Assembly (NCBI RefSeq): GCF_016811075.1
Contig: NZ_JAFBGL010000005.1
Span: 1 to 64,000 of the forward strand
From: Oceaniferula flava
Lineage (GTDB): Bacteria; Verrucomicrobiota; Verrucomicrobiia; Verrucomicrobiales; Akkermansiaceae
Length of the DNA stretch: 64,000 bases
Direction: 5' to 3'
Shown in pieces: positions 14,954 through 64,000 of the stretch. How positions within the stretch are numbered: the first letter of the stretch is position 1; the number at the start of each line of letters is the position of its first letter. The position numbers and the translations under genes were made by a program. Below the pieces are notes generated by a model. That model saw only the letters and a list, made by a program, of their open reading frames with translations. It ran no database searches and was not told where the DNA came from.

Positions 14954-16069
14954 TTAGACGAGTTTTTCGGCGATGGCGTCGACTAAGAGGATGCCGGTGT
15001 TAATCAGGCGGAGCTTGCCGTCCTTGATTTCTGCCAGTTCGTTCTCGATCAGGGTGTCTACTTCGCCTTCTGGAGAGCCTTCGAGGTAGTGATCCGGCAG
15101 GCCTTCCGTGGTGCGCAGCAGGAGGGCGATGCGCTCGATGCGATACGCTTCGGCATCGATAATTTCCTCCTCGCGCTTGGCGTGGCCCACGGTGTTGATG
15201 GCGTGGATGTAGCCGGCGGTGTCAGGGAGATTGCGCCAGCGCCGATCGCCAACGGTCGCGACCGCCGAAGGTCCGAGGCCGAGGTAATCGATCCCCTGCC
15301 AGTAACTTTGATTGTGCCGCGACTCCATACCGGGTTGCGCGTAGTTAGAGGTTTCGTAGTGCAGGAAACCGGCGGCCGTCAGGGTGTCGTGGGCTTGCTG
15401 GAATTGGACCGCATTGGTGTCTTCGCTCTGTGCGTAGTCACCTTGGGTTAGTTTTTCAATGAACTCGGTGTCCTCCTCGTAGGTGAGGTTGTAGGCGGAA
15501 ATGTGGTCGGGCTTCAGTGCCACCGCCGTGTCCAGGCTATGTTGCCAATCGGCGTTGCTGAGGCCGGGGATGGAGAACATCAGATCGATGTTGATTTCGT
15601 CCATGCCGGCATCGCGTAGGATTCTCACCGATTCGGCGGCCTGCTCAGGGTTGTGTTCACGGCCGAGGGTTTTCAGCACATGATCGTTAAAGGACTGGAT
15701 CCCCAGCGATGTCCGGTTGACTCCGAGTTCTTTGAATAGGGCGGCTTTGTTGGGGCCGAAGGTGGCAGGATTCGCCTCCATCGTGATGTGAGTGTTTTCT
15801 AACGGTAGCGTCCGGTGGAAGCCTTCGAAAAGCTCTGTGAGATGTTTCGGCGATAGCATCGATGGCGTGCCGCCGCCGAGGTAGAGGGTGTCGATGGGTG
15901 GCAGGCTGCTAGAAGACGCTGTCTCTTTCGCCTCGTGCAGGATGGCACGGATAAACGCCTGGATATCGGTATCCCCGGGCGTGTGTTTGTAGAAGGAGCA
16001 GTAGGGACAGATCCGGTGACAAAAAGGGATGTGGACGTAGAGAATCAAACTTTGTGATTTAAGTCCCAA
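14954..16069 (-). CDS. hemW: Radical SAM haem chaperone HemW
   Basis: A 371-residue radical SAM protein related to oxygen-independent coproporphyrinogen III oxidase. The cluster motif is C17-x3-C21-x2-C24 in CHRICPYC, followed by the GGGTPS motif and the C-terminal HemW region (YWQGIDYLGLGPSA). HemW-type proteins are now viewed as haem chaperones rather than oxidases; the length and CPYCSF context fit that. The likely start is a TTG at 16069. It is convergent with ccsA and shares the haem/cytochrome neighbourhood with hemE. Confidence 0.9.
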   Translation of the reverse strand: MGLKSQSLILYVHIPFCHRICPYCSFYKHTPGDTDIQAFIRAILHEAKETASSSSLPPIDTLYLGGGTPSMLSPKHLTELFEGFHRTLPLENTHITMEANPATFGPNKAALFKELGVNRTSLGIQSFNDHVLKTLGREHNPEQAAESVRILRDAGMDEINIDLMFSIPGLSNADWQHSLDTAVALKPDHISAYNLTYEEDTEFIEKLTQGDYAQSEDTNAVQFQQAHDTLTAAGFLHYETSNYAQPGMESRHNQSYWQGIDYLGLGPSAVATVGDRRWRNLPDTAGYIHAINTVGHAKREEEIIDAEAYRIERIALLLRTTEGLPDHYLEGSPEGEVDTLIENELAEIKDGKLRLINTGILLVDAIAEKLV

Positions 16070-30164: not shown

Positions 30165-30238
<74 letters not shown>

Positions 30239-30866
30239 CTTATTCTTTGTTGATGGCACGTGTTGAGCTTATCTTATCCATGTTCATAGGTTTAAGTGTT
30301 TGATGTTAACGCCTTGTGATTTCTTTGTTCACAGATGTGGGAAAAATTCCCTGACGAGTGCTATCTTCAAGTTCTAGGGAATGATGGACTTCTCTTCACT
30401 ATTTTTCGTAGAAATAAGGTCTTAATCTTGTGGCTACCGATGCTAAAGTGATAGTGTCTCGTTGAGGGGAAATGTGAGGTATGTTAGAGGAGGGGAAGCA
30501 TGTGAATTAGGCTCAAATTTGTCTTTAATGATCTTACTAAAGCGCGAAAATAGTTTGTTTGATGACATGGTTTGAATTCATTTTTGCGCAAAGTTTTCTA
30601 GATTCCCAATCTAGCAGTTATCTGTTTTGATTATCGTAAATCTACTTTCGAATAAACCTAACAAATATCTACCTCTGATGTGAGAGGTAAATATTCATAG
30701 ATGGTGAACTATCCCTGCTTTGGGACAGGTTTCAATAGAGAAATTACTTCCTCTCCTGCCATGGGGCTATTTAGGTTGTTCGTATATCGCTGTCAGATGC
30801 CTATCTGGATGAGTAGGGAACTGACTGTGCTGCGTGCAGTTCGCAATAATAAACAATGAATGGATT
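30239..30866. other. Intergenic, start of the AT-rich island
   Basis: 628 bp without a credible gene. It holds a perfect 7-bp inverted repeat CTAGATT/AATCTAG with a 3-nt centre (30598-30614) and a hairpin built on TACCTCT/AGAGGTA (30670-30689) that extends with one mismatch into flanking AT pairs. No duplicate of the tRNA 3' end or integrase remnant was seen. The promoter of the following PEP-CTERM gene should lie in its right part. Confidence 0.5.
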
Positions 30867-32056: not shown

Positions 32057-33874
32057 ATGAAACACATTTGTACATTCACGACCTTTATCCTCATTCTCGC
32101 CACCTGCATGGCAGATATCGAAGCTAGGCCACTCAAGCTCCACTCCATTTTTACTAATCACATGGTTCTACAAAGAGATAAGCCGATTATGATCTGGGGC
32201 TGGGCCGATAAGGGGGCAAATGTATCTGTAAAATTTGGCAAAGAAACCGCTAATGCTACGGCGATTGGAGAGGCTGGTCGCTGGGAAGTCACTTTTCCTG
32301 CCCGTGGAGCTGACGCTATTGGAAAAGAACTCACTGTAGCGCATGGGAGCACATTAATTGAAGTGCGAGATATCGTCATCGGTGATGTATGGGTTATGAA
32401 TGGCCAGTCTAACATGGCATTTGGCCTAGGTAAGACATCCCAAGCCGATCTCGAAAGCGCTCAGGCAAACCTTCCCCTTTTCCGTTGCTTTAACCTCAAA
32501 AGCAATGAACAAGCCTCTCTGCAGTCTGATTTGCCTGCTGATGCAATTGAGGGAGATGGCTGGACATGTTCTACCCCCCAAATATCTCTCACCTTCTCTT
32601 CAATAGGTTACAGTTTCGGCTCCCGCCTCCAACGCGCGTTACAGATCCCGATTGGCATCATCGATACTGCACGCGGCGGGGCATCAATCGAGTCTTTAGT
32701 TCCTCAGCACAAGTTCAAAGACCACCCTCTTGCCGCCGCCTACAAGTCTTATCAAGACAGCGTTATAGCTGAATTTGATGCTGAAGCCTTTGCTGAAAAG
32801 AAGTGGAAGAATCAATTAGCTCAAGCAAAATCAAAGGGACTTCCAAAGGATAAATGGCCTACTAATGGTGGAGCCAAGAGCCTTCGTTCTTGGGATCGAC
32901 CAGATCAAAGCCCAGCTCATAACGGTAGTTGTTATAACGGTATGTTTGGCGTGTTTAAAGGGCTTAATATCAAGGGTGTTCTTTTCCATCAAGGTTTCAA
33001 CAACTCGCTACGCACCAGCTGCAGGCCAAAACTCTACCGTGCCCTCATGAAAGTGATGGTCGAAGGGTGGCGGGAAGATTTTAACGACCCAGCCCTCCCT
33101 GTCGGCGTAATTGGATTCTGTGCGGGCGGAGTCTCACAAACACGTGAAAACTTTGAAGCCTGGTCGATCTCTTCTGGAGCGTATATACGTGAGGCTCAAC
33201 GACTAGGGCTGGCCGATATTGAAGATGCTAAAAATACAGCTTTCTTGCCGGCCCATGACATACAAATCCCGGGCCTTCACCCAGTTAAAAAAATTGATCA
33301 TGCCATCCGCGCCACACGTTGGGCTCTTAATCGAGTATACGGTAAAAAGATTAACTGGGACTCAGCAACCTTGGTGTCAGTCGAGCCACAGGGCGAGCGA
33401 ATCGTGCTTACCTTTGATAAACCAGTAATGCCTGACGATATGTCGACCACCATTGAAGGGTTCTCAATCGCTGGTAAAGATGGAAAATTTTACCTCGCGC
33501 ATGCGAAATGGCCAATGAAGAAAGATCACGGTATTCATAACACCGCTAAGAAGAGCTTTGAAAATAAAAAGATCGAATTATGGAGCCCTCTGGTAGCTGA
33601 ACCCATTGCAGTGCGCTACGCCTGGGCAACCAGCCCCATGGGGAACCTCAAGGTTAACGGTAAGCCTTGGCTACCTCTCCACAGTTTCCGCACCGACAAC
33701 TGGGACTGGCCTGAGAGTGACGACTATTCAAAAATTCTGATGGATCGCCTCACGATGAAAAAGGCAATGAAGGAAGCAGCCGAACGTCTCGAGTTCCGAC
33801 GTCATGAGGAAGCAACGCGAGCAGTGGAAATCATTGATGAGTTGGAAACCTTGGGGCGATCGGTATCAAAATAG
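32057..33874 (+). CDS. Exported sialate O-acetylesterase (SASA domain)
   Basis: A 605-residue exported esterase with a signal peptide (about 1-23). A short N-terminal beta domain (FTNHMVLQRDKPIMIWG, about 30-105) is followed by the SGNH/GDSL-like SASA domain with the nucleophile in NGQSNM (Ser118) and the catalytic Asp/His in DIQIPGLHP. This two-part form is typical of long SASA esterases. It should remove O-acetyl groups from glycans. A 200-bp AT-rich gap separates it from the operon that follows. Confidence 0.9.
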   Translation: MKHICTFTTFILILATCMADIEARPLKLHSIFTNHMVLQRDKPIMIWGWADKGANVSVKFGKETANATAIGEAGRWEVTFPARGADAIGKELTVAHGSTLIEVRDIVIGDVWVMNGQSNMAFGLGKTSQADLESAQANLPLFRCFNLKSNEQASLQSDLPADAIEGDGWTCSTPQISLTFSSIGYSFGSRLQRALQIPIGIIDTARGGASIESLVPQHKFKDHPLAAAYKSYQDSVIAEFDAEAFAEKKWKNQLAQAKSKGLPKDKWPTNGGAKSLRSWDRPDQSPAHNGSCYNGMFGVFKGLNIKGVLFHQGFNNSLRTSCRPKLYRALMKVMVEGWREDFNDPALPVGVIGFCAGGVSQTRENFEAWSISSGAYIREAQRLGLADIEDAKNTAFLPAHDIQIPGLHPVKKIDHAIRATRWALNRVYGKKINWDSATLVSVEPQGERIVLTFDKPVMPDDMSTTIEGFSIAGKDGKFYLAHAKWPMKKDHGIHNTAKKSFENKKIELWSPLVAEPIAVRYAWATSPMGNLKVNGKPWLPLHSFRTDNWDWPESDDYSKILMDRLTMKKAMKEAAERLEFRRHEEATRAVEIIDELETLGRSVSK

Positions 33875-34074: not shown

Positions 34075-36276
34075 GTGATGAAATGTAATCATATATTAAC
34101 AGCTGTTATCGCGGGCGGAATTCTGCTTTCAGGATTAGCTGATGGAGCCGAAACAAAGCTAAGAAAAACACGCGATCGAGCGCCTGAAACATCTACTGAG
34201 TTGACGACGGTGGGTGAAAAATTAGAAGCTCAATATACTGAGATCCTTAATAGTCTGAAAGCTGAAATCATGCGGCAGTTGCCAACTATCGATAGCTCAA
34301 AAGAAACGGCTTTCCTGAGTGCTTTACAGGATGAAACAAAGGCATTGAAACATGCTATTTTAAAAGCAAAAGACCTGCGCATTTGTCGAGCAAAAGATGG
34401 CAAGTTAATAGAGGCACAAGACAAACTGGAAGAGGCCCCTAAGCGAGTGGTCGATGCACAAGCCAGATTGAACCGAGCTCTTGCTATGCCTGAGGGTAGC
34501 GATGATAAGGCTAAAACTGTTAATTGGTTTAAAGGAAAACTAGAAAAAAGACAGGCTGATGTGAAAAAGCTCAAAGGCAGCGTCAAGAAGGCGGAAGACG
34601 CTTTGAAAAAGGCCCGTCTGAAGGAACCCGAACTAGCCAAGAAATCGGAGAATGCAACAAAAGTCTATGAGCAGGCAAAATTGAACACTTGGCAAACGGT
34701 GGAAGCCCTCGGCCTACACCGCTTGGCATCCAAAAGTCAATTTGATGATAATTTGGTAAAGTACACCGTCCTCTCCGAAGCGACTCCTCGCTACTTGGCT
34801 GAGTTTGCACAACAGGGGCAGGCACAGGAAAAGCTAATCAATCAGCTTTTATCGAACAATAAATTGATGCTCCAGATGTTGCTGGCAGATGGTGCTTGGT
34901 GGGGGAAATACGGAGAGGCCATGGAAATCTATACGGCGATCCAGAACATCAGTCCAAAGGCTAAAGAGGGGATCTACCAGAGATTGGCGCTAGCCGTTAG
35001 CCTAGAGCATGCCGTTCCTCTTCTGCAAAGAAATGCAAAAGCCAAGAAGGATGCTCCAAAATATGTCGATCCTGTCAAAAGATACCTTAGCTATGAAAAA
35101 TCTTATGAGCAAGGAGAGCTCGACCCTGCATTTAAAAACCTCAGTGTTTGGGAGCTAAGGAAAGTTGTGGATGGTAAAGACCCTGATGACGTTTTTGCTT
35201 GGGGCCGTGAATTACTCCAAAATTACCGACCTTCTCATCTCAATATTGATTACAGTGCTGGGCGCTACGCGAAAGCTGTTGATACAGAAATCTTCTACGG
35301 AAGCGATCATGTTAAGGACGATCTGCCAGAACTCGAGTTTTTTCAGAATGTCCTCGCGAATGGTGGCATCTGCGGCAGGCGTGCGTTTTTTGGTCGGTTC
35401 CTGCTTCGCGCTTATGGCATTCCTACAACAGCCCGCAGAGAACCTGGACATGCTACTTTAGCTCACTGGACTCCGAATGGTTGGGAAACTCGATTAGGTG
35501 GTCAATGGAGCGGGCGGGCATCCATGGACCGCTACGGTTATGATATGGATTTTCTTGCCAATACCCAGGCTCGGAATGATGCTGAAGGGTTTAAGATAGT
35601 GAAAAGGCTGCAGTGGATAGGTGATCTCGTGCAAGAGACTCCCGTCTATGGTTACTATTCAAAACGTGAACCTAACCTTTGGTATGGTTTGTCATTGGTT
35701 GTTCAGAGGCGTGTAATCGAAAGCCTGAAGGTAAATACTCCTGAGTTTGTTGGAACGCCTCCTGAACGTGCAATGAAAGCTAGTGTCAGCAATGTAATTG
35801 GAACTGTAGATATTCCACAATCTGAACGCGAGATTAGAGTGGACGGTGAAGGTGTCATAACCATTCCTGCTTCTGCTTGTAGTAAACCTGCCAACAACAC
35901 CGACGTCATTACGTTTGTCGAGAGTTGTCTCGGCGGGATGCAGATGCATTACAGTCGGTATGGTGGTTCAGATACATTTGAATATGAATTCGAAGTAACT
36001 AAAGCTGGGAAATATCTACTCTCTGCAAAATTGATCACACCGGCCTGGAAACAATTCCTGTTTGTTAATTCTAACGGTTCAGAGAAGACCACTGAGATGG
36101 CTTTGCCATACACCGTTGGAAAGTGGGGGGACTCTGAACCTGTCGAAATTGAACTGCTGAAAGGAACGAACGTGTTGACGTTCTCACGTGCTCATTATTT
36201 CCAAAAAGGGATAACAATCAAGGAGTTCAAGTTAAGTCCCGTCAATCAAACTTTCAGGAAACAAATCTCATTTTAG
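34075..36276 (+). CDS. Exported transglutaminase-like protein with coiled coil
   Basis: A 733-residue exported protein of no named family that I can recall with certainty. A signal peptide (about 1-25) is followed by a long Lys/Glu/Ala-rich coiled coil (about 40-210). The central region carries a papain/transglutaminase-like core: GGICGRRAFFGRFLLRAYGI (Cys at about 433) then REPGHATLAHW (His at about 459), the Cys-His order of transglutaminase-fold domains; an Asp downstream was not fixed. The C-terminal 130 residues look like a beta-sandwich binding domain (DGEGVITIPASACSKP onward). It opens a tightly spaced operon of glycan-active enzymes, so it may crosslink, anchor or cleave surface protein at the site of digestion (inference). 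Confidence 0.6.
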   Translation: MMKCNHILTAVIAGGILLSGLADGAETKLRKTRDRAPETSTELTTVGEKLEAQYTEILNSLKAEIMRQLPTIDSSKETAFLSALQDETKALKHAILKAKDLRICRAKDGKLIEAQDKLEEAPKRVVDAQARLNRALAMPEGSDDKAKTVNWFKGKLEKRQADVKKLKGSVKKAEDALKKARLKEPELAKKSENATKVYEQAKLNTWQTVEALGLHRLASKSQFDDNLVKYTVLSEATPRYLAEFAQQGQAQEKLINQLLSNNKLMLQMLLADGAWWGKYGEAMEIYTAIQNISPKAKEGIYQRLALAVSLEHAVPLLQRNAKAKKDAPKYVDPVKRYLSYEKSYEQGELDPAFKNLSVWELRKVVDGKDPDDVFAWGRELLQNYRPSHLNIDYSAGRYAKAVDTEIFYGSDHVKDDLPELEFFQNVLANGGICGRRAFFGRFLLRAYGIPTTARREPGHATLAHWTPNGWETRLGGQWSGRASMDRYGYDMDFLANTQARNDAEGFKIVKRLQWIGDLVQETPVYGYYSKREPNLWYGLSLVVQRRVIESLKVNTPEFVGTPPERAMKASVSNVIGTVDIPQSEREIRVDGEGVITIPASACSKPANNTDVITFVESCLGGMQMHYSRYGGSDTFEYEFEVTKAGKYLLSAKLITPAWKQFLFVNSNGSEKTTEMALPYTVGKWGDSEPVEIELLKGTNVLTFSRAHYFQKGITIKEFKLSPVNQTFRKQISF

Positions 36277-36300
36277 ACAACAAAACAAATTCCGATAACC

Positions 36301-37401
36301 ATGAAATCTACCATCATTACACGAACTAAGAGACTTTCCACAGTCGCTGCGATTGTTATTACAGCCGCAGTCACGCAGAACGGCACATGCGCCGAAACTA
36401 CTGGAATTCAGGCTCCCGATGATCAACCCGCTGACATGAGGAAGCCTGTGCAAGTATTTATTCTGTTGGGTCAATCTAACATGGTTGGCATGGGGAAAGT
36501 AAAAGGGAAGAAAGGATCCCTAGAACATGCAGTAAAAATAGATAAAAAATACCCCTACTTGCAAGGATCGCAAGGTCAGTGGACAGAGCGTAAGGACGTT
36601 CGTTATGTTCGTGTGATGGGCAGCGGTATGAACAAAAATAGAAAACTCAATAACGAATGGTTGACCGTAAAAGGAAACAAAATTGGACCTGAAATTGGCA
36701 TCGGTCATCGTATGGGGCAAGCCATAGACGCTCCAGTGATGATTCTTAAAAGCTGTATTGGGAATCGTAGTCTTGGATGGGATCTATTAGCTCCAGGAAG
36801 CCCGCGTTACGAATTTGAAGAAAAGGTAAAAGACGGCACTGTGAAGACCTATATTTACGCAAAATATAAAGAGTCACCAATGAAATGGGAGAAAGGCACA
36901 GATCCTAAACCAATTAATTGGTATGCAGGAGTTCAATACGATGGTGATATATCTAGGGCTAAAGCTGTTCTTGCAGATCTTGATGCCCATTACCCTGGTG
37001 CGAATGGTTATGAAGTTGCAGGTTTTTTCTTCTGGCAGGGCGACAAGGATCGATACGATGCTGGCCTCTCTGCTAACTATGAAAACAATCTTGTTCACTT
37101 GATTAAGCAGCTCCGGAAAGAGTTTGACGCACCAATAGCGAAGTTCGTGTGCGCTACTCTAGGACAGACCGAAAAAGGGGCCAAAGGAAATGAGGGTCTT
37201 ATTCTTGAGGCTCAATTAGCAGTAGACGGCGAGACCGGTAAATACCAGGCATTCAAAGGAAATGTAGCTACCGTCTACAGTCATCCCTTATCCCTAGGAG
37301 GGTCCTCTAACGGTCATTATGATGGTAATGCTGAAACTTATATGAATATAGGTGAAGCTATGGGCCAGGCCATGACTAAACTACTTAAAATATCGAAGTA
37401 G
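36301..37401 (+). CDS. Exported SASA-family carbohydrate esterase
   Basis: A 366-residue exported esterase with a signal peptide (about 1-30) and a SASA/DUF303 domain. The nucleophile is Ser59 in LLGQSNM; the block GPEIGIGHRMG and the distal SSNGHYDGNAETY (His/Asp region) complete the active site. It lacks the N-terminal beta domain of the long form at 32,057. It probably deacetylates polysaccharide. It is the second gene of the operon, 24 bp after the transglutaminase-like gene. Confidence 0.88.
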   Translation: MKSTIITRTKRLSTVAAIVITAAVTQNGTCAETTGIQAPDDQPADMRKPVQVFILLGQSNMVGMGKVKGKKGSLEHAVKIDKKYPYLQGSQGQWTERKDVRYVRVMGSGMNKNRKLNNEWLTVKGNKIGPEIGIGHRMGQAIDAPVMILKSCIGNRSLGWDLLAPGSPRYEFEEKVKDGTVKTYIYAKYKESPMKWEKGTDPKPINWYAGVQYDGDISRAKAVLADLDAHYPGANGYEVAGFFFWQGDKDRYDAGLSANYENNLVHLIKQLRKEFDAPIAKFVCATLGQTEKGAKGNEGLILEAQLAVDGETGKYQAFKGNVATVYSHPLSLGGSSNGHYDGNAETYMNIGEAMGQAMTKLLKISK

Positions 37402-37426
37402 TATTTCTAGCAATAAATATCATATT

Positions 37427-38632
37427 ATGAAATTAAGTATATATTGTTCAATGCTAGCTGCTTTGGTCGTTGGTCATCTAGCTGAAGCTTCCAGTAAACC
37501 ACTACAGGTCTACATTTTAGCCGGTCAATCTAACATGCAGGGGCATGCAAAAGTAAGTACATTCGAGCACATTGGCATGGATGTAAATTCTAAGCCGATG
37601 CTCGACGATATGCAAAACTCCAAAGGAGACCCAAAGGTTTGTGATCGAGTTTGGATTTCCACTATTGGTTGTGCCGATACTGAACAGGTGGGTAAGTTGA
37701 CTGCGGGGTTCGGAGCGGCCAAAAGAGGGCCTAAAATAGGTCCAGAGTTCACTTTTGGTATCACCATGGAGAAACAAACAGATGCCCCTATTTTGATAAT
37801 TAAAACCGCGTGGGGAGGAAAAAGCTTACATACCGACTTCCGGCCGCCGAGTGCCGGGCCCTATGAATTTAATGAGGCAGAACTTGCTAAGTTAAGAGCT
37901 CAAAGCAAAGACTTCGATGCTGAGAAGTTAGAAAAGGAGAAAGCTACCGGCGTTTATTATCGACAGATGATAGCGCATGTAAATGCCGTGCTTGCTGACA
38001 TCAAACGCGTGGTGCCAGAATATGACTCGAAGCAAGGTTACGAGCTTTCCGGCTTTGTTTGGTTCCAAGGATGGAATGACTTGGTAGACGGTAATGCCTA
38101 TCCTAGACGCGGCAAAGCCGGCGGTTACTCTGCATATAGTGATGCCATGGCTCACCTCATTCGAGATGTAAGAAAGGACCTCAAGACACCCAAGCTTCCT
38201 TTTGTGATTGGTGTCATGGGCGTGGGTGGACCGACCCAGGAATATGGGCCGGATCAAAAACGCTATCGATTTAGCCATCAAAGCTTCCGCGATGCTATGG
38301 CTGCACCGGCGAAGTTGCCGGAGTTCAAGGACAACGTCACCGTCGTGCTCACAGAAAAATTTTGGGATCCCGAACTTACCGCTACCAAAGCAAAGGCCAA
38401 CGCTCTTAGGAAAGAGGCCAAGCAAATTGCAGAAAAGAAAAAACTGAATGCAACCGAGTCAAAGGCACTTTACGAAAAAATTAACAACCAGGGCCTCTCG
38501 GCTAGGGAACAAAAGATACTTGAGAAAGGCATTTCGAATGCCGAATACCACTACTTAGGATCAGCAAAAATACTCGGCGCAATAGGTCAAGAGTTTGCTA
38601 GGGTATTGAGTGGTGTATCAAACAATCACTAA
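37427..38632 (+). CDS. Exported SASA-family carbohydrate esterase
   Basis: A 401-residue exported esterase with a signal peptide (about 1-21) and a SASA domain. The nucleophile is Ser35 in LAGQSNMQGHAK; GPEFTFGITM and FVWFQGWNDLVDG are the further blocks. Near the C-terminus is a Lys/Ala/Glu helix (KANALRKEAKQIAEKKK) followed by the end NAEYHYLGSAKILG with the catalytic His. It is related to, but clearly different from, the gene before it, suggesting distinct acetyl positions. Gaps to neighbours are 25 and 11 bp. Confidence 0.88.
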   Translation: MKLSIYCSMLAALVVGHLAEASSKPLQVYILAGQSNMQGHAKVSTFEHIGMDVNSKPMLDDMQNSKGDPKVCDRVWISTIGCADTEQVGKLTAGFGAAKRGPKIGPEFTFGITMEKQTDAPILIIKTAWGGKSLHTDFRPPSAGPYEFNEAELAKLRAQSKDFDAEKLEKEKATGVYYRQMIAHVNAVLADIKRVVPEYDSKQGYELSGFVWFQGWNDLVDGNAYPRRGKAGGYSAYSDAMAHLIRDVRKDLKTPKLPFVIGVMGVGGPTQEYGPDQKRYRFSHQSFRDAMAAPAKLPEFKDNVTVVLTEKFWDPELTATKAKANALRKEAKQIAEKKKLNATESKALYEKINNQGLSAREQKILEKGISNAEYHYLGSAKILGAIGQEFARVLSGVSNNH

Positions 38633-38643
38633 CTTTATAAGTA

Positions 38644-41040
38644 ATGACATTCAAATATATTATTCTGTGCCTGTCTCTTTCTATTTCTGGCACAACATAC
38701 GCTGCTTCTAAACACTCCATTTCCAAACTCGACTTTACGCAAGGGGACAAGGTTCCCGAAAATGCAAATCACGACTGGAATCTCGGTGCTACTGGTCTAC
38801 GCGGATGGATGTACTTCAATAAAATGGTCACAACTGATGCCCGGCAAGTTCTGGTCACAAAAGTCACCAAAGGGTCGCCTGCTGACGGTAAAATCAAAGT
38901 TGGAGATGTGATTTTAGGAGTTAACGGGAAGCCCTTCTCAAGTGACCCTCGTAAGGAAATAGGTAATGCTTTGGGGCATGCTGAATCATCTAAATCTAAC
39001 GGGGGTCTTACGTTATTGCGTTGGCGTGACGGGAAGCAGGATGAAGTATCATTAATTCTTCCAATTCTGGGGAGCTACAGTGCTACCGCCCCTTATGATT
39101 GCTCGAAATCTGTTGTCATTTTTAAGAAGGGTTGCGAGGCTCTTGCCGCGCGTATTGTTAACCCAAGCTATAAGGAAAACCCTATACCCAGGGCATTGAA
39201 TGCGCTTGCTTTACTAGCCAGTGGTGAGCCTAAGTATCTTCCAGTTATTCGCCAAGAAGTTGAATGGGCCGCCAACTTCTCAACTGATCGATTTCAAACT
39301 TGGTATTACGGATACAACATGATGTTAGTGGCCGAATATACCATGGCTACGGGTGACAAGAGTTACTTACCTGGGTTGCGACGTTTGGCGTTGGAATCCG
39401 CCGCTGGACAAAGCGCTGTTGGCTCTTGGGGGCATGGTTTTGCTGGATCTGATCGTCGATTAATTGGGTACGGCATGATGAATTCCCCTGGAGTGCCTCT
39501 TACAATAGCTCTTACTATGGCACGTGCTGCTGGCCTCAAAGATCCTGAAATCACCCAAGCCATCAATCGTAGTACTCGCCTACTTCGTTTTTATAATGGA
39601 AAGGGTGCTATTCCCTATGGTGATCACACGCCCTGGACTGAAACACACGAAGATAACGGGAAATGTGGTATGACCGCAGTCCTCTTTAATCTACTCAAGG
39701 AGAAAGATTGCACCACTTTTTTCTCGAAGATGAGCATTGCCTCACACGGCTCAGAGCGTGACACCGGACACACTGGCAATTTTTTCAATATTCTTTGGGC
39801 ACTTCCTGGAATCTCTCCAAGTGGTCCTCATGCTACCGGAGCCTGGATGAAAGAATATGGCTCATGGTATTTTGATCTCGCTCGACAATCAGACGGAAGC
39901 TTTACCCATCAGGGGCCACCTCAACTTAAAACTGATAGTTATGCGAATTGGGACTGCACTGGTGCCTATCTGCTCAGTTATGCTTTACCACTTAAGACGC
40001 TCTATTTGACGGGAAAAGAAGGGTCCTGCATCCCTGCTGTCAATGCCATACGCGCTGCAAAACTCATTGGTGACGGTCAAGGATGGGATAATAAAGATCG
40101 GAACAGCGCCTATGATAAACTCAAGATCGGATTTCTCCTTGATAATCTAACAAGCTGGTCTCCCGTCGTTCGTGAACGATCAGCTATGGCCCTCGCTCGT
40201 CGGAAGGATACACCTATTGCACCACTTGTTACTCTTCTTTCTTCATCAGACATGAACTCCAGATACGGTGCTTGTCAAGCCCTCGCAGCCCTGCGTAAGC
40301 GAGCCGCCCCTGCCATCGAACCACTCAGGGCCTGTCTCAAATCTGATGACTTATGGCTTCGTATTAAAGCTGCAGAGGCCCTGTCCTCCATCGGTAAACA
40401 GGCTATGCACACAGCCCCCGAACTTTTAAACCTGCTTGCGCAAGTTGACAAAAAAAATGATCCTAGAGGGATGCAACAGCGCTATTTCTCCTACACGCTT
40501 TTCAATGCTAGGGGGGGGATGCTCACTAGCTCACTTGACGGCGTAGATCGAGAAGCGCTATACGCAGCGGTTAGAGCTGGGCTAAAAAATGAGGATGGTC
40601 GAGCTCGTGGTAGTATTGGATCAGTTTACCGTAACCTGAATTTTAAAGAGATCCGTCCACTTCTTCCTGCAATCTTGGAAGCTGTCGTCGAGCCTGCACC
40701 CAGCGGTGTTATGTTTGCCGATATCGTCCGAGTCGAGGGACTTCATATTCTCTCAGTGCACAAAGTCGAAGAAGGCATCTTGGCCTGTGTAAACTACCTC
40801 CGCACTCAGAACCGATGGGCAAGTGAAAAACGTACACCAGAACTCCTGGAGATCCTTCTTTCCTACGGAACTCACGCTAAGTCAGTCATCCCAGAACTCG
40901 AAAAAATTGCGGCAACAATGTCACAGGGTGAAGCCCATTTCCCGAAACGTCTTAGTTTGCAAAAAGCTGAGTATATTCGAGAGACCATCGCCCTGATTGA
41001 AAAATCCAATATTACACCAGAACTTATAACCATCAATTAA
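38644..41040 (+). CDS. DUF6288 protein with PDZ and HEAT-like repeats
   Basis: A 798-residue exported protein with a signal peptide (about 1-20). A PDZ domain (about 45-135) contains LGATGLRGWMYF and VGDVILGVNGKPF. The central region (about 150-460) resembles the DUF6288 alpha-rich domain, with HGFAGSDRRLIGYGMMN and YANWDCTGAYLLSYALPL. The C-terminal part (about 495-650) has HEAT-like repeats such as RERSAMALARRKD and SRYGACQALAALRK. Role unknown; the PDZ-plus-repeat design suggests a scaffold or a lyase-like alpha/alpha fold. A paralogue starts at 62,787. It is co-transcribed with SASA and glycosidase genes. Confidence 0.78.
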   Translation: MTFKYIILCLSLSISGTTYAASKHSISKLDFTQGDKVPENANHDWNLGATGLRGWMYFNKMVTTDARQVLVTKVTKGSPADGKIKVGDVILGVNGKPFSSDPRKEIGNALGHAESSKSNGGLTLLRWRDGKQDEVSLILPILGSYSATAPYDCSKSVVIFKKGCEALAARIVNPSYKENPIPRALNALALLASGEPKYLPVIRQEVEWAANFSTDRFQTWYYGYNMMLVAEYTMATGDKSYLPGLRRLALESAAGQSAVGSWGHGFAGSDRRLIGYGMMNSPGVPLTIALTMARAAGLKDPEITQAINRSTRLLRFYNGKGAIPYGDHTPWTETHEDNGKCGMTAVLFNLLKEKDCTTFFSKMSIASHGSERDTGHTGNFFNILWALPGISPSGPHATGAWMKEYGSWYFDLARQSDGSFTHQGPPQLKTDSYANWDCTGAYLLSYALPLKTLYLTGKEGSCIPAVNAIRAAKLIGDGQGWDNKDRNSAYDKLKIGFLLDNLTSWSPVVRERSAMALARRKDTPIAPLVTLLSSSDMNSRYGACQALAALRKRAAPAIEPLRACLKSDDLWLRIKAAEALSSIGKQAMHTAPELLNLLAQVDKKNDPRGMQQRYFSYTLFNARGGMLTSSLDGVDREALYAAVRAGLKNEDGRARGSIGSVYRNLNFKEIRPLLPAILEAVVEPAPSGVMFADIVRVEGLHILSVHKVEEGILACVNYLRTQNRWASEKRTPELLEILLSYGTHAKSVIPELEKIAATMSQGEAHFPKRLSLQKAEYIRETIALIEKSNITPELITIN

Positions 41041-41052
41041 GCTACACTTCCC

Positions 41053-43491
41053 ATGTCTCATCCATCTTTCACCCATTCAGCGAGCTTAGGGTTGCGTCTC
41101 ATTCCTGGACTAAGTTCTATCGCCGCTCTGGCTTTATCCGTTGTAAGCTCAACAGCTTTATCTGCTTCTGAAATAATTCCAGGAGCAACGGAGTCTACCC
41201 CGTCTCGGTCACAGTATTTTTCGTGGATCAACAACACTAATGAAGGAGCCACCGAAACTCAAACATTGGCTAATCTGGAGTTTTTTAAATGGATGCATGA
41301 TGAATACGGTATGAAACTGGATATCTATGCTTTCGACGCAGGTAACATTGATGGTCCTCGGTATTATGGGAGCATGGATTCTGATAAATTCAAGAAGCAG
41401 TTTCCGCGCGGGTTTGAACCGATCTACAAACTCGCAAAAAGTTTCGATTGTCGACTGGGTATTTGGTTAGGTCCAGATGGCTTTGGTGACACCCCTGAAG
41501 AAGAACAAGCGAGGATAGATATGCTGGCTGGTCTTTGTAGGGACTATGAATTCGCACTTTTCAAGATGGATTCAGTCTGTACCCAGTTACGCCCGGAAAA
41601 GCAGGATGCCTTTGCTCGCTTAATGACAGAGTGCCGAAAATACAGCCCGGATTTGATCTTGCTTAACCACCGTCTGGACTTGGGCAAAGCCAATCCCTAT
41701 GCCACTACTTTTCTCTGGGGTGGCGCGGAAACGTACATCGATGTGCACATGACAAACCGGAGTCGCACTGGAACCCACAATCGGGTAGAGGCAATATCTC
41801 GTGGCTTAGTTCCTGATCTACAGAGACTCACAGAGGATCATGGTGTCTGCCTTTCATCATGCCTCGACTTCTGGGAAGATGATTTGATATTGCAGGCATT
41901 TAACCGAAACCTAATCCTATCTCCTGAGATTTATGCCAACCCTTGGTTCTTGAAAGATGATGAGTTTCCACTTTTGGCACGCATATATAACTTACTCCAT
42001 CGTTACCGCGACATCATGGTCAAGGGCATAGTCCTCGATGAACAACGCTACGGTCCGTTGGCTGTAGCTCGGGGGGATGCAAATACTCGCATCATTACCT
42101 TACGAAATTTAACTTGGGAACCAGTCATCAGAAAAATCAAATTGGATGAATCAGTTGGTTTCACTTCAACAGGGCCAGTCGAAGTTCGCCGTTTTCACCC
42201 TAATGAACGTATTTTGGGGACATTTAACTACGGTGATGAAGTGGAGGTTGAAGTGCTCCCTTTCCGAAGCTGCTTGTTATTAGTCGATAATCAACAAACA
42301 GGAGGGGTAGGTGTCATTGGTAGTGATTACTCGGTTGTTCGAGATGTGCCTGGGAAAGATGTAATTATCAAGCTTCGAGGTGAAGCTGGTCATACGACTC
42401 CCATTTCATTGGTAGGTGGTGGTAAGACATTTAAACGTGCCACTTTAGACGGTGAACCGTTGAATAATTTTACCACAGGTGGGGCAGTAACCATCAACTT
42501 TCCAGGGACTTTAAATCCCAAATCATGGCACAGAAAAATCGGGAATCCTGCCGTATGCGCAGTTCCTGAGGATGCCGAAACCCTTTATGAGGTTACCTGT
42601 TTCGCTGCCGACAACCACCCACTCGAAATTCGCTCACTGCAGCGATCAGGCCCAAGTGCTATTCCACAGGTGCAAAAAGCGAGAAAAGAATTTCTTGGTC
42701 AGGCGATCATTCAAGAACGTGGTATTCTTCAGCAATATCTGTTCGATGACGACCCTTCCACGGTCTATAGCCTGTTGCGTAGAAAGAGACGTAAGCCAGA
42801 AAGCCGTTACCTGAGGCTTGACCTAGGGGAACTTACAAATATCAACCGTATCGTATTAGAAACACCACAGAATGCCGAGTTAAAACATGCATCAATAACG
42901 AAGGACACTCATGCCGAAGTATCAGCAGATCTCAAGACCTGGTCACCTGTGCAGCTGGTAGAAGATGACGGGAACTTTCGAATTGATATTAACTCTGACA
43001 AACCAGTCCGCTATCTGAGAAGCAACCTAGTGCCAGACAAGTTGGTCGAAATTCGCGGTTACGAAGGAGACAAGCAATTAGCAAGAAGCCAGTGGAAGAT
43101 GTCGTGGCTATTCACTGAGTTTCAATCAGCATCTAAAGCTTGGTCATTACCTTTCACGATGGAGGCAGCTCCAGCTGGAAGTTACTTAGCTGTTGCATGC
43201 AATGGTAAACACGGAAGAGATGGGACTTGGGTTGCACTTAAAGTAGGAGACCGTTACGTAGGAGCCCCACGCCGAGCACCTTCATTCCCTGTTAATCCAT
43301 GGGAAAACGGGGTTCCACGGACAGAAAGCAATGTTACCTACTTCATTCCTGTGACTCCAGATATGGTTGGGAAAAAATGTGAAGTCGTTGTGCTTGGTCT
43401 AGATCCTGAGCATCTAGATTTCACCCCAGAAGTTTGGTTGACTGCATACCCTATTCCTTTGAAGGAAAAAACTCTCATTCTATCAGAGTAA
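41053..43491 (+). CDS. Putative clan GH-D glycosidase (alpha-galactosidase-like)
   Basis: An 812-residue exported protein with a signal peptide (about 1-39). A TIM-barrel-like region (about 50-320) has LDIYAFDAGNIDG, RLGIWLGPDGFGDT and FKMDSV; Asp173 of the last sits where clan GH-D enzymes (GH27/31/36) have their K-x-D nucleophile. A beta domain follows, then a discoidin-like segment (about 590-670, LRLDLGELTNINRIVLETP) and a C-terminal beta domain. The family is inferred from these blocks; the substrate could be an alpha-galactoside or a related sugar. Gaps are 12 bp upstream and 67 bp downstream. Confidence 0.65.
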   Translation: MSHPSFTHSASLGLRLIPGLSSIAALALSVVSSTALSASEIIPGATESTPSRSQYFSWINNTNEGATETQTLANLEFFKWMHDEYGMKLDIYAFDAGNIDGPRYYGSMDSDKFKKQFPRGFEPIYKLAKSFDCRLGIWLGPDGFGDTPEEEQARIDMLAGLCRDYEFALFKMDSVCTQLRPEKQDAFARLMTECRKYSPDLILLNHRLDLGKANPYATTFLWGGAETYIDVHMTNRSRTGTHNRVEAISRGLVPDLQRLTEDHGVCLSSCLDFWEDDLILQAFNRNLILSPEIYANPWFLKDDEFPLLARIYNLLHRYRDIMVKGIVLDEQRYGPLAVARGDANTRIITLRNLTWEPVIRKIKLDESVGFTSTGPVEVRRFHPNERILGTFNYGDEVEVEVLPFRSCLLLVDNQQTGGVGVIGSDYSVVRDVPGKDVIIKLRGEAGHTTPISLVGGGKTFKRATLDGEPLNNFTTGGAVTINFPGTLNPKSWHRKIGNPAVCAVPEDAETLYEVTCFAADNHPLEIRSLQRSGPSAIPQVQKARKEFLGQAIIQERGILQQYLFDDDPSTVYSLLRRKRRKPESRYLRLDLGELTNINRIVLETPQNAELKHASITKDTHAEVSADLKTWSPVQLVEDDGNFRIDINSDKPVRYLRSNLVPDKLVEIRGYEGDKQLARSQWKMSWLFTEFQSASKAWSLPFTMEAAPAGSYLAVACNGKHGRDGTWVALKVGDRYVGAPRRAPSFPVNPWENGVPRTESNVTYFIPVTPDMVGKKCEVVVLGLDPEHLDFTPEVWLTAYPIPLKEKTLILSE

Positions 43492-43558
43492 AGTGCAGAT
43501 TAGACAAAACTCTAGAACGACTCAACATACATCGGCCTCCCTACTAAAAGTTAGAAAT

Positions 43559-45970
43559 ATGAAGATAGGACTCTTGACAATAATCGCCTTCGCAGGGTTA
43601 AGCAGCTTGATTGAGGCTGCTCCTGTTAAGATAAAGGTGGAAGCTAAAACAGCACTCTTGGCAAACGACTTTATTACGGCGAAATTTGATCTAGATAGTC
43701 GAAGGTTCAGCATTCTCGATAGCCAAAATGGTGAAATACTGCTCGAAAATTCAGAGATTAAAACCAAGATGAAGGAAGGTGCGAGCCTGTACGTGCATCG
43801 TCAAGAGGCGGTAGTGGACGCATTCGGCAAGGGGCAACGGCTAGTGCTTGCCCTCAGCGATTACGGGCTTTATCGCTACTCTTCACATTTCAAACGTAGG
43901 GGCTTACCAGCTCAGCAACTCTTCTCATACACCCTTTATGAGAATCATCCGGCTATTATACTCGGCTTTGGCCTTAAAACTCCGAATTATTTTAGCATGC
44001 GGTTAAGGGATATTACCGTGCTTGATGGAGGTCGTTTATTTGGCGGGAAAGAAGTCAGCCAGTCTCAAACCTTGAATGGTAGTGCAGGCATGGACTCAAC
44101 TCTAGTAATTAAAGGGCTCGATCGTATTTCCTGTAACAGCTTGTTATTGACGGGTAAGGTAAACGGTAAACGCCGTTCGATCGTTTGGGGAGGCCTTGGG
44201 AATAAAGCTTATGCTAAGATTGCGACCCTAAAGGCGGGAGTCCTCGGATTATACGCAGAAGACCCGATCGGCATCCTGGTCGACGAAGATAAAGATTATC
44301 TTAGTGAAGATACTTTCTATCTCGACCTCACAGGATTAGACCCATTTGAGACTTTGGAGAGGTATGGTAAAGCTGTGCGTATAGCCAATAATGCTTCACC
44401 CAACGTTTACCAAGCTCCTGTTCTATGTGGGTGGAGTGTGTCTCATATCAGTAAATTGCCAAATATTAACAACTCTGCAAAGCTTGTTCAAGAGGCGGAA
44501 CTGGCTAAGGCCAGTCAACTGACGAAGTACACAGAACCGATGCTCCGTCTCGAGCCAGATAAATATCACTTGGATACTGAGCAGGGCTGGTGGGACGATC
44601 AGCGCTTTCGTCAATATGGGCACCTCGTGCCACCTTACGAGACTGTCGCGAGCTGGTGTAAGGCTCTCGAGGAACGAGGTTGTTCAGGCTACACATACAT
44701 GCAGCTTGGTATGCCTTCGGATGATTTCGCCAAAGCTCATCCGGAATGGATGCTCTTTAATGATATTTCAGAGCTGGACCGTCGAGGTCCTGGCTATGAA
44801 GACAAAAAAAATAAACATAACCATCATCAACCTTACGTTACCTATGACTATACCGATAAGGAATACTCCAAACACTTCGTTAAAGTTTGGTCAGCAATAC
44901 GTAAGGCCGGAGTGCGCGGGGTGAAAGTAGATTATCCCGCTACCGCATGGCGCCCCGAAGGAGGATTTGACGACCGTTACGCCAGTACAAACTCTGCTTA
45001 CCGACGTGCATTTTCCTTGCTTAGAGAGGCTATGGGGGAGGATGGGTTGATCGATGAACGAAATCTCGGCGAATCTGGCCGCCCTTGTTTAGACTTGACC
45101 GCTGGCTTAGTGGACACTCAACGGACTTGGGGAGATGATAACAAGTTCGTGCCAGAGATGGTTTCGCGCAGTGGGCTGCGTTGGTATAAAAACCGGACTG
45201 TCTTTAATTATTATTCAGACACGAAGGCTGTACATGGCCTTACACCGGAAAATTTACAATCGCTCATCACGATGAACTTCCTAACCAGTGGTCGACTAGA
45301 TTTGGCGACTTCGTATTCCTTGTTTACACCCGAAGTCACTAGAATCGTCTCACGGAGCTATCCGCACTATCAGGAGCCAATGAGTGCTCGTCCACTTGAT
45401 GCCTTTACCGACATCAGCGATCCACAAGTTTACGAATTGGAGCTGACTCCTGATTGGAGACAGGTGGCACTCTATAACACTGGGGCAAAGAGAACAATCG
45501 TCTCAACTGCATTAAGCGGCGATCGAACGACGAATGCGATCGGGCTTGACCCTTCGGCTAGCTATCATGGCTACGAATTCTGGAGCGATACTTATTTAGG
45601 AAAAATCGAGGGAAGTGGTAGGGTGGAACAAGAGCTAGAACCCGGCCACTGCGCCATGATTTCGGTGAGAAAGGCCTTGGATCATCCACAAGTAATAAGC
45701 ACAAACCGCCACCTGCTCCAAGGCTGGGTAGATCTAACTAATGTCCGGTGGGATGAGTCAAAAAGATCACTGTCTGGAACGGCCAAGGTGATTGCCGGAG
45801 AAGAATTCAAGATCGTGATTGCCAACAACGGTATCGAGATGAACCAAGTGAAGGTTGATAAGGGTTTAGCTACAATAGCACCTCACCCAACATCACGCAG
45901 CCTTAAGGTCCTGAGTATAGAATCATCCCAGTCTGGTGAGGTTGACTGGCGTGTCACACAGAGTCATTGA
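43559..45970 (+). CDS. Putative clan GH-D glycosidase (GH36-like)
   Basis: An 803-residue exported protein started at MKIGLLTIIAFAGLSS (43559) so that the signal peptide is N-terminal; an in-frame GTG at 43493 would bury it. A long N-terminal beta-sandwich (about 25-290) resembles that of GH36. The barrel region has the probable nucleophile Asp458 in GVKVDYPATAW and the block DTQRTWGDDNKF. A C-terminal beta domain closes the protein. It differs from the preceding gene in the length of the N-terminal beta domain, so the two glycosidases probably act on different linkages. It is the last gene of the operon; no terminator was recognised after it. Confidence 0.68.
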   Translation: MKIGLLTIIAFAGLSSLIEAAPVKIKVEAKTALLANDFITAKFDLDSRRFSILDSQNGEILLENSEIKTKMKEGASLYVHRQEAVVDAFGKGQRLVLALSDYGLYRYSSHFKRRGLPAQQLFSYTLYENHPAIILGFGLKTPNYFSMRLRDITVLDGGRLFGGKEVSQSQTLNGSAGMDSTLVIKGLDRISCNSLLLTGKVNGKRRSIVWGGLGNKAYAKIATLKAGVLGLYAEDPIGILVDEDKDYLSEDTFYLDLTGLDPFETLERYGKAVRIANNASPNVYQAPVLCGWSVSHISKLPNINNSAKLVQEAELAKASQLTKYTEPMLRLEPDKYHLDTEQGWWDDQRFRQYGHLVPPYETVASWCKALEERGCSGYTYMQLGMPSDDFAKAHPEWMLFNDISELDRRGPGYEDKKNKHNHHQPYVTYDYTDKEYSKHFVKVWSAIRKAGVRGVKVDYPATAWRPEGGFDDRYASTNSAYRRAFSLLREAMGEDGLIDERNLGESGRPCLDLTAGLVDTQRTWGDDNKFVPEMVSRSGLRWYKNRTVFNYYSDTKAVHGLTPENLQSLITMNFLTSGRLDLATSYSLFTPEVTRIVSRSYPHYQEPMSARPLDAFTDISDPQVYELELTPDWRQVALYNTGAKRTIVSTALSGDRTTNAIGLDPSASYHGYEFWSDTYLGKIEGSGRVEQELEPGHCAMISVRKALDHPQVISTNRHLLQGWVDLTNVRWDESKRSLSGTAKVIAGEEFKIVIANNGIEMNQVKVDKGLATIAPHPTSRSLKVLSIESSQSGEVDWRVTQSH

Positions 45971-61408: not shown

Positions 61409-62236
61409 TTATTGTTTCTCATTTACCTTGTCTGCATCAGGGGCTGGCGCAACCTTAGGACGAAGGCGAAGTTTAACTTTAGTCCCAACTTCCGGGAGAT
61501 GTGTGGCATCAATCTGCCACTCTAGCGAGTTCGTAGAATGACTATACACTCTAGGTAAACAAAGGAGTTCATCCCCAAAGGTAGCAATGGAAATCACATG
61601 GCCGCTCATGTCAGCTAGATATTTGCGAGCTCCGTTACCATGATTACGGAGAAATGAACCGGCGAACAAGAATGTATTTGTAGGAAATTGGCTATCCTTT
61701 TGCTTTGTTCGCAGTTTCTTTTTCCCAGAATAAGCCTTTATTAAATCGCATACAGGCCGTTCTACAACAATTCCTTGTTTGTTCTTAAAAACTATAAAGA
61801 CATCTACAGGGGCACCTCTTGGGGGGACATGAACCCAAGTTCCGTTCTGTTTGCTCAACGGTTTTTGCATTGCAGGATTCCCTGGCGTAGAACCCATTAG
61901 AAGGAGTGCTGTGTGTATATGTCGAGGCATTGCACCCACTGCAATTATGGACTCGTGCTCTTTACTATTTTTGGTACAAGCAAGAAGCTCTAGAGGCCCT
62001 TCATCAAGACAGATTTCGCCGTCCACATCTACGCAATGTTCCTTGAGGTTGATGTGAACACCTGGCAATTTAAGTTTTTTAAGTGCTCCCTCCAAAGATT
62101 CTGTCGACCCACTCTCGGAGGAAGTCGTCTTAGCAGTGCTATCTGCGACCGCTTTGTCGGTGGGTATCATCGCCAATAGTATCGCTACAGTTACCACGCC
62201 AATTAAGGGATGATGTTTCGGCGGTGTTTGCTTCAC
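61409..62236 (-). CDS. YdjY-domain exported protein
   Basis: A 275-residue protein if started at a GTG (62236) that places a signal peptide (KQTPPKHHPLIGVVTVAILL, cleaved near AVA) at the N-terminus, with GGAAAAG as a weak Shine-Dalgarno. The frame is open with an ATG at 62410, adding 58 residues of non-signal sequence. The body matches YdjY domains by pattern: GVHINLKEHCVDVDGEICLD, LLACTKNSKEHESI, and AMPRHIHTALLLMG. These domains are common in Planctomycetota and Verrucomicrobiota, role unknown. It is convergent with the modular SASA gene. Confidence 0.75.
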   Translation of the reverse strand: MKQTPPKHHPLIGVVTVAILLAMIPTDKAVADSTAKTTSSESGSTESLEGALKKLKLPGVHINLKEHCVDVDGEICLDEGPLELLACTKNSKEHESIIAVGAMPRHIHTALLLMGSTPGNPAMQKPLSKQNGTWVHVPPRGAPVDVFIVFKNKQGIVVERPVCDLIKAYSGKKKLRTKQKDSQFPTNTFLFAGSFLRNHGNGARKYLADMSGHVISIATFGDELLCLPRVYSHSTNSLEWQIDATHLPEVGTKVKLRLRPKVAPAPDADKVNEKQ

Positions 62237-62786
62237 AAATCTTTTCCGATGCCCTAACTGAGAAGCCTTACCAACACGGCTATTCACAACCGAAGTTGGT
62301 CTAATATTGATCAAGCTACAAGTTTGCTCGACTACGTTTGAGCAATCCAAAATATGGTTATTAATCAACGAGGGCACTGGGGAAATTTGATAATGGTTAT
62401 AGAATGTCAAGCCTCCTAACGTCTTTAGGGAGGGTTCTTATTAGTTGGATAATAACTAATAACCAAAGGCTTCAGGTAGATACTAATCAATTATTAGTTT
62501 TTACCATTCCTAATTCATGGGATGTTTATGCTGCAATCATTGGATTTTCTGGACAAAAACTCCTTGCTTAACTTGATTCATGTCTTCCTCCCAGAATGAG
62601 GGGTGGTAGCCAGAAGGTTAACGGTTGTCATGAAAGATATGCAAAGTGTTTAATGCACCATTATTAGAGATATAACATAATCTATGTTTATTTCAGATAT
62701 GTTGTTTAGTCATAGGGTCCCAATACTTACGGCGCGTTATGAATTGGCCCATTAACACATCATACGTCACGGTAACCCAATACATC
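62237..62786. promoter_or_regulatory. Divergent promoter region with iterated operator-like sites
   Basis: About 550 bp between the YdjY gene and the last gene. TTATTAGTT occurs at 62438-62446 and 62491-62499 and inverted as AACTAATAA at 62454-62462; the first pair forms a perfect 9-bp inverted repeat. ACCATTCCTAATTCATGGGA (62503-62522) is the reverse complement of the element at 56281-56299 with one extra base. A hairpin CCTCCTAA/TTAGGGAGG lies at 62412-62433. These suggest a regulated divergent promoter. Confidence 0.55.
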
Positions 62787-64000
62787 ATGAAAATAATTAA
62801 CCAAGTCACTACACTAAGCGAACAATGGAAAACTCTCGTTTCAGTCATCACGGGCTTCATCATTGTTCTCTACTCTCTTTTCTCTGCAAGCGTGCATGCA
62901 TCCGCTCCAGATCTAACCACCGGAGGTGTGCCGAACGAGACACCTACTCTGGACATAAACCTTGGACCTACAGGAATGCACGGATGGGTTTATCACCAAG
63001 GGGCCAATACTAAAGATAGTCGACAAATCTTAGTTACTTCAGTCGATACCGGGTCGCCTGCTGATGGTGTTCTGGCCGTTGATGATGTTGTCCTTGGGGC
63101 AGATGGAACCGGAGCTACCCCAGTGAATTTCAGCTCAGATGCCCGCAAGAGCCTTGCTTTGGCCATCGCTGATGCCGAAGCACAGAATCCGGCTACACTC
63201 AGGCTTCTGCGTTGGAGAGCAGGCACTACCTCTACAGTTTCAATTACGCTTCAGGCACTTGGCGCATACAGCGCTACGGCACCCTACAATTGTCCCAAGT
63301 CTGCTACCATTCTTGAGCAAGGTTTGGATTTCATTATGGCCAGTGAGGATTCTGGGAGGTTTTCGTTGGGCACTCTAAGCCTTTTGGCAGGGAATGACCC
63401 CTTGAACACAGACAATGCGGCAAGGCAAACACGGGCTCAAACGGAAGCACGTGCACTTATCGCCAGTCCAGATAAAATTGCCTTTTGGAAATCTGGCCAG
63501 ATAGACACTAATGCCAAAATCACTTGGACGCTGGGGCATCAGCTGATTGTTTTGACTGAATACTATCTTCAGACGGAAGACCAATTGGTCCTCCCCACTA
63601 TTGAGGCCATGGCCATTCAGATAGCCAACGGGCAAAGTCATTTCGGAACCATGGGACATCAACTTGCCGTTCCAGCATCCGATGGCTCACTCAATGGTGC
63701 CTATAACGTGGGTTACGGAACAGTTAACTCTGCAGGTATGCCATGTTTCTTAGGTTTGTTGCTCGCCAGGGAATGCGGGGTCAACAGCCCTGAAATCGAT
63801 CCCGCGATCGAGCGAGCTAGTGCTTTTTTTGCGGCGTATGAAGGCTATGGGAAAATACCTTATGGCGAACACGAACCTGAGCGCTCTGGGCATTCGGGGA
63901 ACGGAAAAAGCGCGATCGCGGCCCTTTGCTTTTCTCTGATGGATGATAGGCAAGGTGAACAAAAATATTTTTCCAGAATGGCGACAGCTTCGGCATCTGA
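62787..64000 (+). CDS. DUF6288 protein with PDZ domain, cut by window end
   Basis: At least 404 residues in an open frame to the window end. A hydrophobic N-terminal segment (WKTLVSVITGFIIVLYSLFS) ending near VHA acts as a signal peptide. The PDZ domain has LGPTGMHGWVYHQG, GSPADGVLAVDDVVLG and LLRWRAGTT; the DUF6288 body begins LGAYSATAPYNCPKSA, the same phrase as the 38,644 gene. The two proteins share the order and spacing of these blocks, so they are paralogues from one family within the island. The body then has HFGTMGHQLAV and GKIPYGEHEPERSG. Co-regulation is suggested by the operator-like sites upstream. Confidence 0.82.
   Translation, partial: MKIINQVTTLSEQWKTLVSVITGFIIVLYSLFSASVHASAPDLTTGGVPNETPTLDINLGPTGMHGWVYHQGANTKDSRQILVTSVDTGSPADGVLAVDDVVLGADGTGATPVNFSSDARKSLALAIADAEAQNPATLRLLRWRAGTTSTVSITLQALGAYSATAPYNCPKSATILEQGLDFIMASEDSGRFSLGTLSLLAGNDPLNTDNAARQTRAQTEARALIASPDKIAFWKSGQIDTNAKITWTLGHQLIVLTEYYLQTEDQLVLPTIEAMAIQIANGQSHFGTMGHQLAVPASDGSLNGAYNVGYGTVNSAGMPCFLGLLLARECGVNSPEIDPAIERASAFFAAYEGYGKIPYGEHEPERSGHSGNGKSAIAALCFSLMDDRQGEQKYFSRMATASAS

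Follow-up and report, generated by a model that had tools for sequence, protein, structure and literature searches.

The window analysed here is a stretch of 64,000 nucleotides of Oceaniferula flava DNA at the start of contig NZ_JAFBGL010000005.1 (C5). Between positions 34075 and 45970 it carries six genes on the forward strand, in the order TG-like, SASA366, SASA401, DUF6288, GHA and GHB. The transglutaminase-like (TG-like) protein (34075..36276, +; 733 aa) features a signal peptide, a helical region, a transglutaminase-like core and a C-terminal CBM6/35-like domain. It is followed by two SASA esterases with signal-peptide-like N-termini, SASA366 (36301..37401, +), whose homologues recur beside TG-like genes, and SASA401 (37427..38632, +), whose homologues recur beside DUF6288 genes. 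The DUF6288 protein (38644..41040, +; 798 aa) comprises a signal peptide, a PDZ domain (residues ~45-140), a predicted (alpha/alpha)6 toroid (144-457) and a HEAT region (~490-790). The last two genes encode GH-D-like glycosidases: GHA (41053..43491, +; 812 aa), with barrel motifs and an F5/8-type C-like domain, and GHB (43559..45970, +; 803 aa), with a weak match to the GH36 alpha-galactosidases. The gaps between the genes are, in order, 24, 25, 11, 12 and 67 bp, the last one calculated with the ATG at 43559 adopted as the GHB start, while the ORF list places this start at an upstream GTG (43493). Another gene of the same family, SASA605 (32057..33874, +), is located 200 bp 5' of the six, encodes a SASA-family (PF03629) acetylesterase-like protein with a signal-peptide-like N-terminus and is possibly a seventh member of the cluster.

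A spacing of 11-67 bp fits one transcript, and co-transcription of the six genes is inferred from it; scans for promoters and terminators of the cluster returned values no different from shuffled sequence. Export of the proteins would be consistent with the Sec-signal-peptide-like N-termini detected on 7/7 of them, SASA605 included, with a simple scan of hydrophobicity rather than with SignalP. In the Pfam scan, PF03629 (SASA) was assigned to SASA605, SASA366 and SASA401 with 57-73 bits against a gathering score of 24.8, and the product of 38644-41040 to PF19805 (DUF6288) together with PDZ and HEAT_2. The same scan gave no match for the TG-like protein and GHB and a sub-threshold F5/8-type C match only for GHA, and no NCBIfam family was assigned to any of the cluster proteins above its cut-off. 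No transporter family, the SusC/SusD pair included, was found among the proteins scanned between 29 and 82 kb of the contig, a set that leaves out small ORFs and a 310-aa ORF at 69575. The earlier note had described a set of six same-strand genes with these gaps, all with signal peptides, and no SusC/D, TonB or ABC transporter nearby; the ORF list and coordinates, the hydrophobicity scan and the domain scan bear this out, and its general picture of a PUL-like exported cluster in which the DUF6288 and transglutaminase-like members are uncharacterised is likewise supported.

The cluster lies within a low-GC block that begins just behind a tRNA-Met gene (30165..30239, +), which forms its left edge. 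The block extends from 30240 to the end of the window at 64000 and covers about 52.6 kb in total (contig C5, ~30.24-82.8 kb). At the tRNA there is a sharp GC step, from about 0.57 to 0.45, and the values return to 0.54-0.60 at ~83 kb. In 2-kb segments the GC content is 0.51-0.59, mostly at least 0.55, to the left of the tRNA, and 0.44-0.54 to its right; GC3 is 0.57-0.77 in the listed genes on the left, against 0.39-0.47 in the cluster genes. Synteny of the left flank extends as far as the tRNA-Met in two stretches from the same genus (L316 and L317), and in a third (L315) the matches are limited to the metallopeptidase gene and the tRNA; beyond the tRNA, the sequence in L315 and L317 differs from the block. 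The right-flank genes were found in none of these three stretches, of which L316 stops 222 bases past the tRNA, so that no clean empty site is available and an empty-site proof of an island was given up. No direct repeat of the tRNA 3' end of at least 15 bases was detected on the contig, the best imperfect match being 15/24, and no integrase domain was found in the scanned block proteins. Judged purely by composition and position, the block looks acquired, and so does the cluster, since it lies inside it.

In addition to the cluster, the block carries two sulfatases, a GntR/Peripla_BP_3 regulator, two PEP-CTERM proteins and a second DUF6288 gene, which starts at 62739 (62739..64000 in the window, +), ends at C5:69647 and encodes a protein of 2302 aa with DUF6288, HEAT, Big_9 and PASTA domains. 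Divergent from this gene and ahead of it lies an ORF of 333 aa (61409-62410, -) with no Pfam match; in L139 and L142, relatives of this ORF immediately precede DUF6288 genes. The block further encodes two large cytochrome-c proteins (L110:8894-12451 and 12405-15332, corresponding to C5:70894-77332), with DUF7133 and 3-keto-disaccharide hydrolase domains in one and DUF6797 in the other, which points to a possible oxidative pathway for glycans within the block.

The earlier note proposed that the same gene order might be sought in other Verrucomicrobiota. The exact order of the six genes was seen in no other genome searched, while smaller combinations do recur, and this recurrence of two of its gene pairs in other genomes makes the cluster more than chance. 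At the level of the order (141 genomes, E ≤1e-10), relatives occur in 35 genomes for the TG-like protein, 6 for GHA, 9 for GHB and 73 for DUF6288; at the level of the phylum (288 genomes, E ≤1e-20), the TG and GHA profiles match in 10 and 9 genomes, respectively. DUF6288 has 12 matches in one of the 141 order genomes and at least 549 related places in public genomes. Within the genus, the TG-like gene is present in 7/14 genomes, the other copies showing 34-51% identity and mostly different surroundings. Small genomes of the same family hold single distant homologues of the TG-like protein (25-34% identity) and single distant DUF6288 matches in open frames of 1390-1506 aa. No relatives of the TG-like protein or GHA were confirmed in viral contigs.

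The first recurrent pair joins SASA401 and DUF6288. SASA genes account for 33/147 immediate neighbours of DUF6288 genes versus 2/132 genes at least seven positions off, as counted in 79 of the 80 named DUF6288 loci (L185 was excluded, no DUF6288 ORF having been called in it by the simple ORF finder). Across 109 DUF6288 loci, 35/48 strong SASA401 matches fall within 500 bp of the DUF6288 gene, a count that includes duplicate genomes (e.g., L113/L152, L114/L156, L121/L170 and L128/L191) and corresponds to about 30 distinct matches. The second pair joins SASA366 and the TG-like gene: in 38 TG-like loci, each a stretch of about 20 kb or less, all 11 strong SASA366 matches (11/11, in 10 loci) lie at most 330 bp from the TG-like gene, and a further one was found 299 bp away in L287, one of 11 same-genus loci. 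These adjoining SASA366 homologues are close, with 52-64% identity. Mixed arrangements were also observed, namely DUF6288, GHA and SASA401 in succession (L142), a sulfatase, GHA and GHB in succession (L232), and DUF6288, SASA366, TG, SASA366 and DUF6288 within 12 kb (L179); in 11/13 GHA loci neither DUF6288 nor GHB is present. The statements on TG, GHA and GHB modules derive from tblastn, the ORF caller having taken some antisense ORFs, as seen at L232.

The assignment of GHA and GHB as GH-D-like, made in the earlier note, agrees with profile-profile comparisons at the level of the fold. The GHA profile matched the GH36 (Melibiase) profile with 85% probability (P 6e-6), while the GHB match was weak, at 39% (P 3e-4), unrelated pairs giving 0.1-0.4%; the GHB profile also matches solved alpha-galactosidases (E 5e-4). 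Asp173 of GHA and Asp458 of GHB are invariant in alignments of six rows and would be the candidate nucleophiles of the two enzymes.

For the DUF6288 protein, an AlphaFold model built from 46 sequences reached a pLDDT of 88.7 and a pTM of 0.89. Foldseek placed HEAT/armadillo proteins in its top rows, and VIA-align of the model aligned residues ~144-457 with (alpha/alpha)6 toroids. The best structural match is the GH76 entry 6shm_A (Z 22.1 over 275 residues, 3.3 A, with 7-11% identity for GH76), followed by MmpH (Z 21.5), sugar epimerases (~20), squalene-hopene cyclase (19.9) and GH105/88 (17-19). With Z scores this close the families are not separated, and the toroid fold does not fix the function, as the squalene-hopene cyclase and also complement proteins (Z 15-16) illustrate. 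The six loops of one toroid face, read from the secondary structure of the model, hold 103/293 residues and 19 of the 38 positions at which a polar or aromatic residue is ≥95% conserved, among them His264, Asp327, His328, His335, Asp337, His376 and Asp437. Compared by sequence rather than by superposition, residues 144-457 contain no conserved Asp-Asp pair, only Glu336-Asp337 (78%/96%), and for this reason the protein was not filed as GH76. DUF6288 is read as a likely enzyme. No mention of DUF6288 was found in the literature searched.

The transglutaminase label given to the first gene in the earlier note stood in part, profile-profile comparison supporting it at the level of the fold. Compared with Transglut_core, the whole alignment gave a weak match (6%, P 0.006) and the core segment a modest one (48% probability, score 28.0, the best of 137 control windows reaching 18.0), and Cys433, His459 and Trp470, which are in register with the Transglut_core alignment, are invariant in 22/22 homologues. 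The catalytic Asp, however, is missing: its position is occupied by Leu474, with Leu in 20/22 and Phe in 2/22 homologues. By its sequence profile the protein is thus transglutaminase-like, but with the third catalytic residue replaced it is not a canonical transglutaminase. Its C-terminus matches CBM6/35. In 3/22 homologues (L082, L086 and L087, the last two apparently from near sister genomes) an FGE-sulfatase (SUMF1-like) domain is present, and this stretch lies within the C-terminal CBM region of the alignment. An AlphaFold model of the TG-like protein from three sequences had a pLDDT of 41.9 and was set aside. No link between a transglutaminase-like protein and loci of this kind was found in the literature searched.

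According to the available part of its description, Oceaniferula flavus 5K15T was isolated from kelp, has a genome of 3,953,077 bp in 51 contigs (N50 346,557) with 79 annotated sulfatase genes, and gave no alpha-galactosidase or alpha-mannosidase reaction in a standard test (PMC9865893). The earlier note had suggested a sulfated substrate from the sulfatases at 52-55 kb. This part of the claim is weak and was dropped: these genes are 6 kb off, with two opposite-strand genes in between, and in a genome with 79 sulfatase genes (82 places matched by Pfam), or roughly one every 50 kb, such proximity is non-specific. Around DUF6288 genes in general, sulfatase matches are mildly enriched, with 14/381 genes at offsets 1-3 versus 4/295 at offsets of 5 or more. 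Between the sulfatases and the end of the cluster, Pfam identifies a BD-FAE-type esterase on the opposite strand (46637-49210, -). Given the habitat, a kelp galactofucan carrying acetyl and sulfate groups would be a fitting candidate substrate.

Taken as a whole, the cluster is on balance probably a horizontally assembled, modular PUL-like set that degrades an acetylated polysaccharide or glycoconjugate, probably of algal origin, outside the cytoplasm. In such a set, the SASA enzymes would strip acetyl groups from the glycan and GHA and GHB, with their GH36-like barrels, would cleave alpha-linked sugars. The DUF6288 toroid would be a likely enzyme for the backbone, for uronides or for some unusual linkage; the TG-like protein may be a Cys-His amidase or hydrolase that attacks a linkage, of the amide type or related to it, in the same material. 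The cluster would be built of interchangeable modules, namely TG-SASA366, SASA401-DUF6288 and GHA with either DUF6288 or GHB. Against this reading count the rarity of GHA and GHB, the 11/13 GHA loci with neither DUF6288 nor GHB, the missing six-gene order in the other genomes searched, the low conservation of the TG-like gene within the genus and the negative enzyme tests of the strain, as given in the available part of its description (PMC9865893).

The same observations could also be read as two or three independent small modules for glycans or glycoproteins (TG-SASA366, SASA401-DUF6288 and GHA-GHB), juxtaposed when the block was assembled and sharing no common pathway. The modules are indeed separate in most genomes, most GHA and GHB loci show different neighbours and conservation within the genus is poor; nevertheless, the short gaps of 11-67 bp, which fit a single transcript, and the repeated mixing of modules in L179, L142 and L232 speak against it, and this reading appears rather unlikely. 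Less probable still is that DUF6288 acts as a non-catalytic surface scaffold, in which PDZ, toroid and HEAT would collect the secreted esterases and glycosidases. PDZ and HEAT, both found here by Pfam, are binding modules, and the model also aligns with the toroids in complement C3/C5 and alpha-2-macroglobulin, at Z scores of 14-16. Enzymes of sugar metabolism score higher, however, with Z scores of 20-22, and half of the conserved polar or aromatic residues, several His and Asp among them, fall in the loops of one toroid face, as expected of a pocket.

It is similarly improbable that the TG-like protein acts on protein, by cross-linking or as a peptide amidase, and that the cluster consequently targets glycoproteins instead of a polysaccharide. 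This idea draws on the transglutaminase-like Cys and His, invariant in 22/22 homologues, and on the precedent of the peptide N-glycanases, which belong to the same superfamily and cut glycan-peptide amides. It is opposed by the replacement of the triad Asp by Leu or Phe in 22/22, by the CBM6/35-like C-terminus and by the recurrent partner gene, which belongs to an acetylesterase family.

As PUL-like loci lacking SusCD had been described before in the phylum, the interest of the cluster lies in two enzyme-like families without a name, DUF6288 and the TG-like proteins. A broader proposal, put forward tentatively and as a joint claim that may well not hold in full, is that DUF6288, secreted with its PDZ and HEAT modules, would found a family of polysaccharide-active (alpha/alpha)6 toroids paired with a SASA acetylesterase in Verrucomicrobiota and Planctomycetota, and that the TG-like family would be a second new type of enzyme, an Asp-less Cys-His glycan amidase with an acetylesterase of its own. 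Both phyla play an important part in the breakdown of resistant algal polysaccharides, and much of their stock of secreted enzymes is unnamed. With its confident predicted fold, conserved face and recurrent esterase partner, DUF6288 lends itself to direct testing as a new family of enzymes.

Several known systems can be set beside the cluster. At the level of single proteins, the barrel motif pattern of the GH36 alpha-galactosidases (PF02065; 1zy9, 5m0x) is also found in the GHA and GHB profiles, although both have low identity to these enzymes and no Pfam match to them. DUF6288 has the (alpha/alpha)6 toroid in common with solved GH76 alpha-1,6-mannanases, but it is devoid of their Asp-Asp pair and has added PDZ and HEAT modules. 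The TG-like protein shares the GxCG...GIP...H...GW pattern of the Transglut_core (PF01841) cysteine enzymes, with Cys and His in register, and differs from them in the Leu or Phe in place of Asp, the lack of a Pfam match and the CBM-like C-terminus. At the level of the locus, co-linear genes for exported glycan-acting enzymes are found as in Bacteroidota PULs, from which the cluster differs by having neither a SusC/SusD pair nor a regulator within the operon. The earlier note had taken the missing SusC/D as a distinguishing mark, a view that does not hold within the phylum: the available part of one survey reports SusCD genes to be absent from its Verrucomicrobiota MAGs and already describes PUL-like fucosidase/sulfatase loci without them (PMC8857213), and the absence was therefore dropped as a novelty. 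Glycan strategies of the Akkermansiaceae have also been surveyed, as the available part of another report indicates (PMC13174399). With the Verrucomicrobiota PUL-like loci, as far as the available part of their description extends, the cluster and its surroundings share co-located hydrolases, sulfatases and esterase-related genes and the absence of SusC/D; the cluster differs in having no fucosidase match and, in its place, DUF6288, the TG-like protein and the GH-D-like enzymes, which are assigned to no family (PMC8857213).
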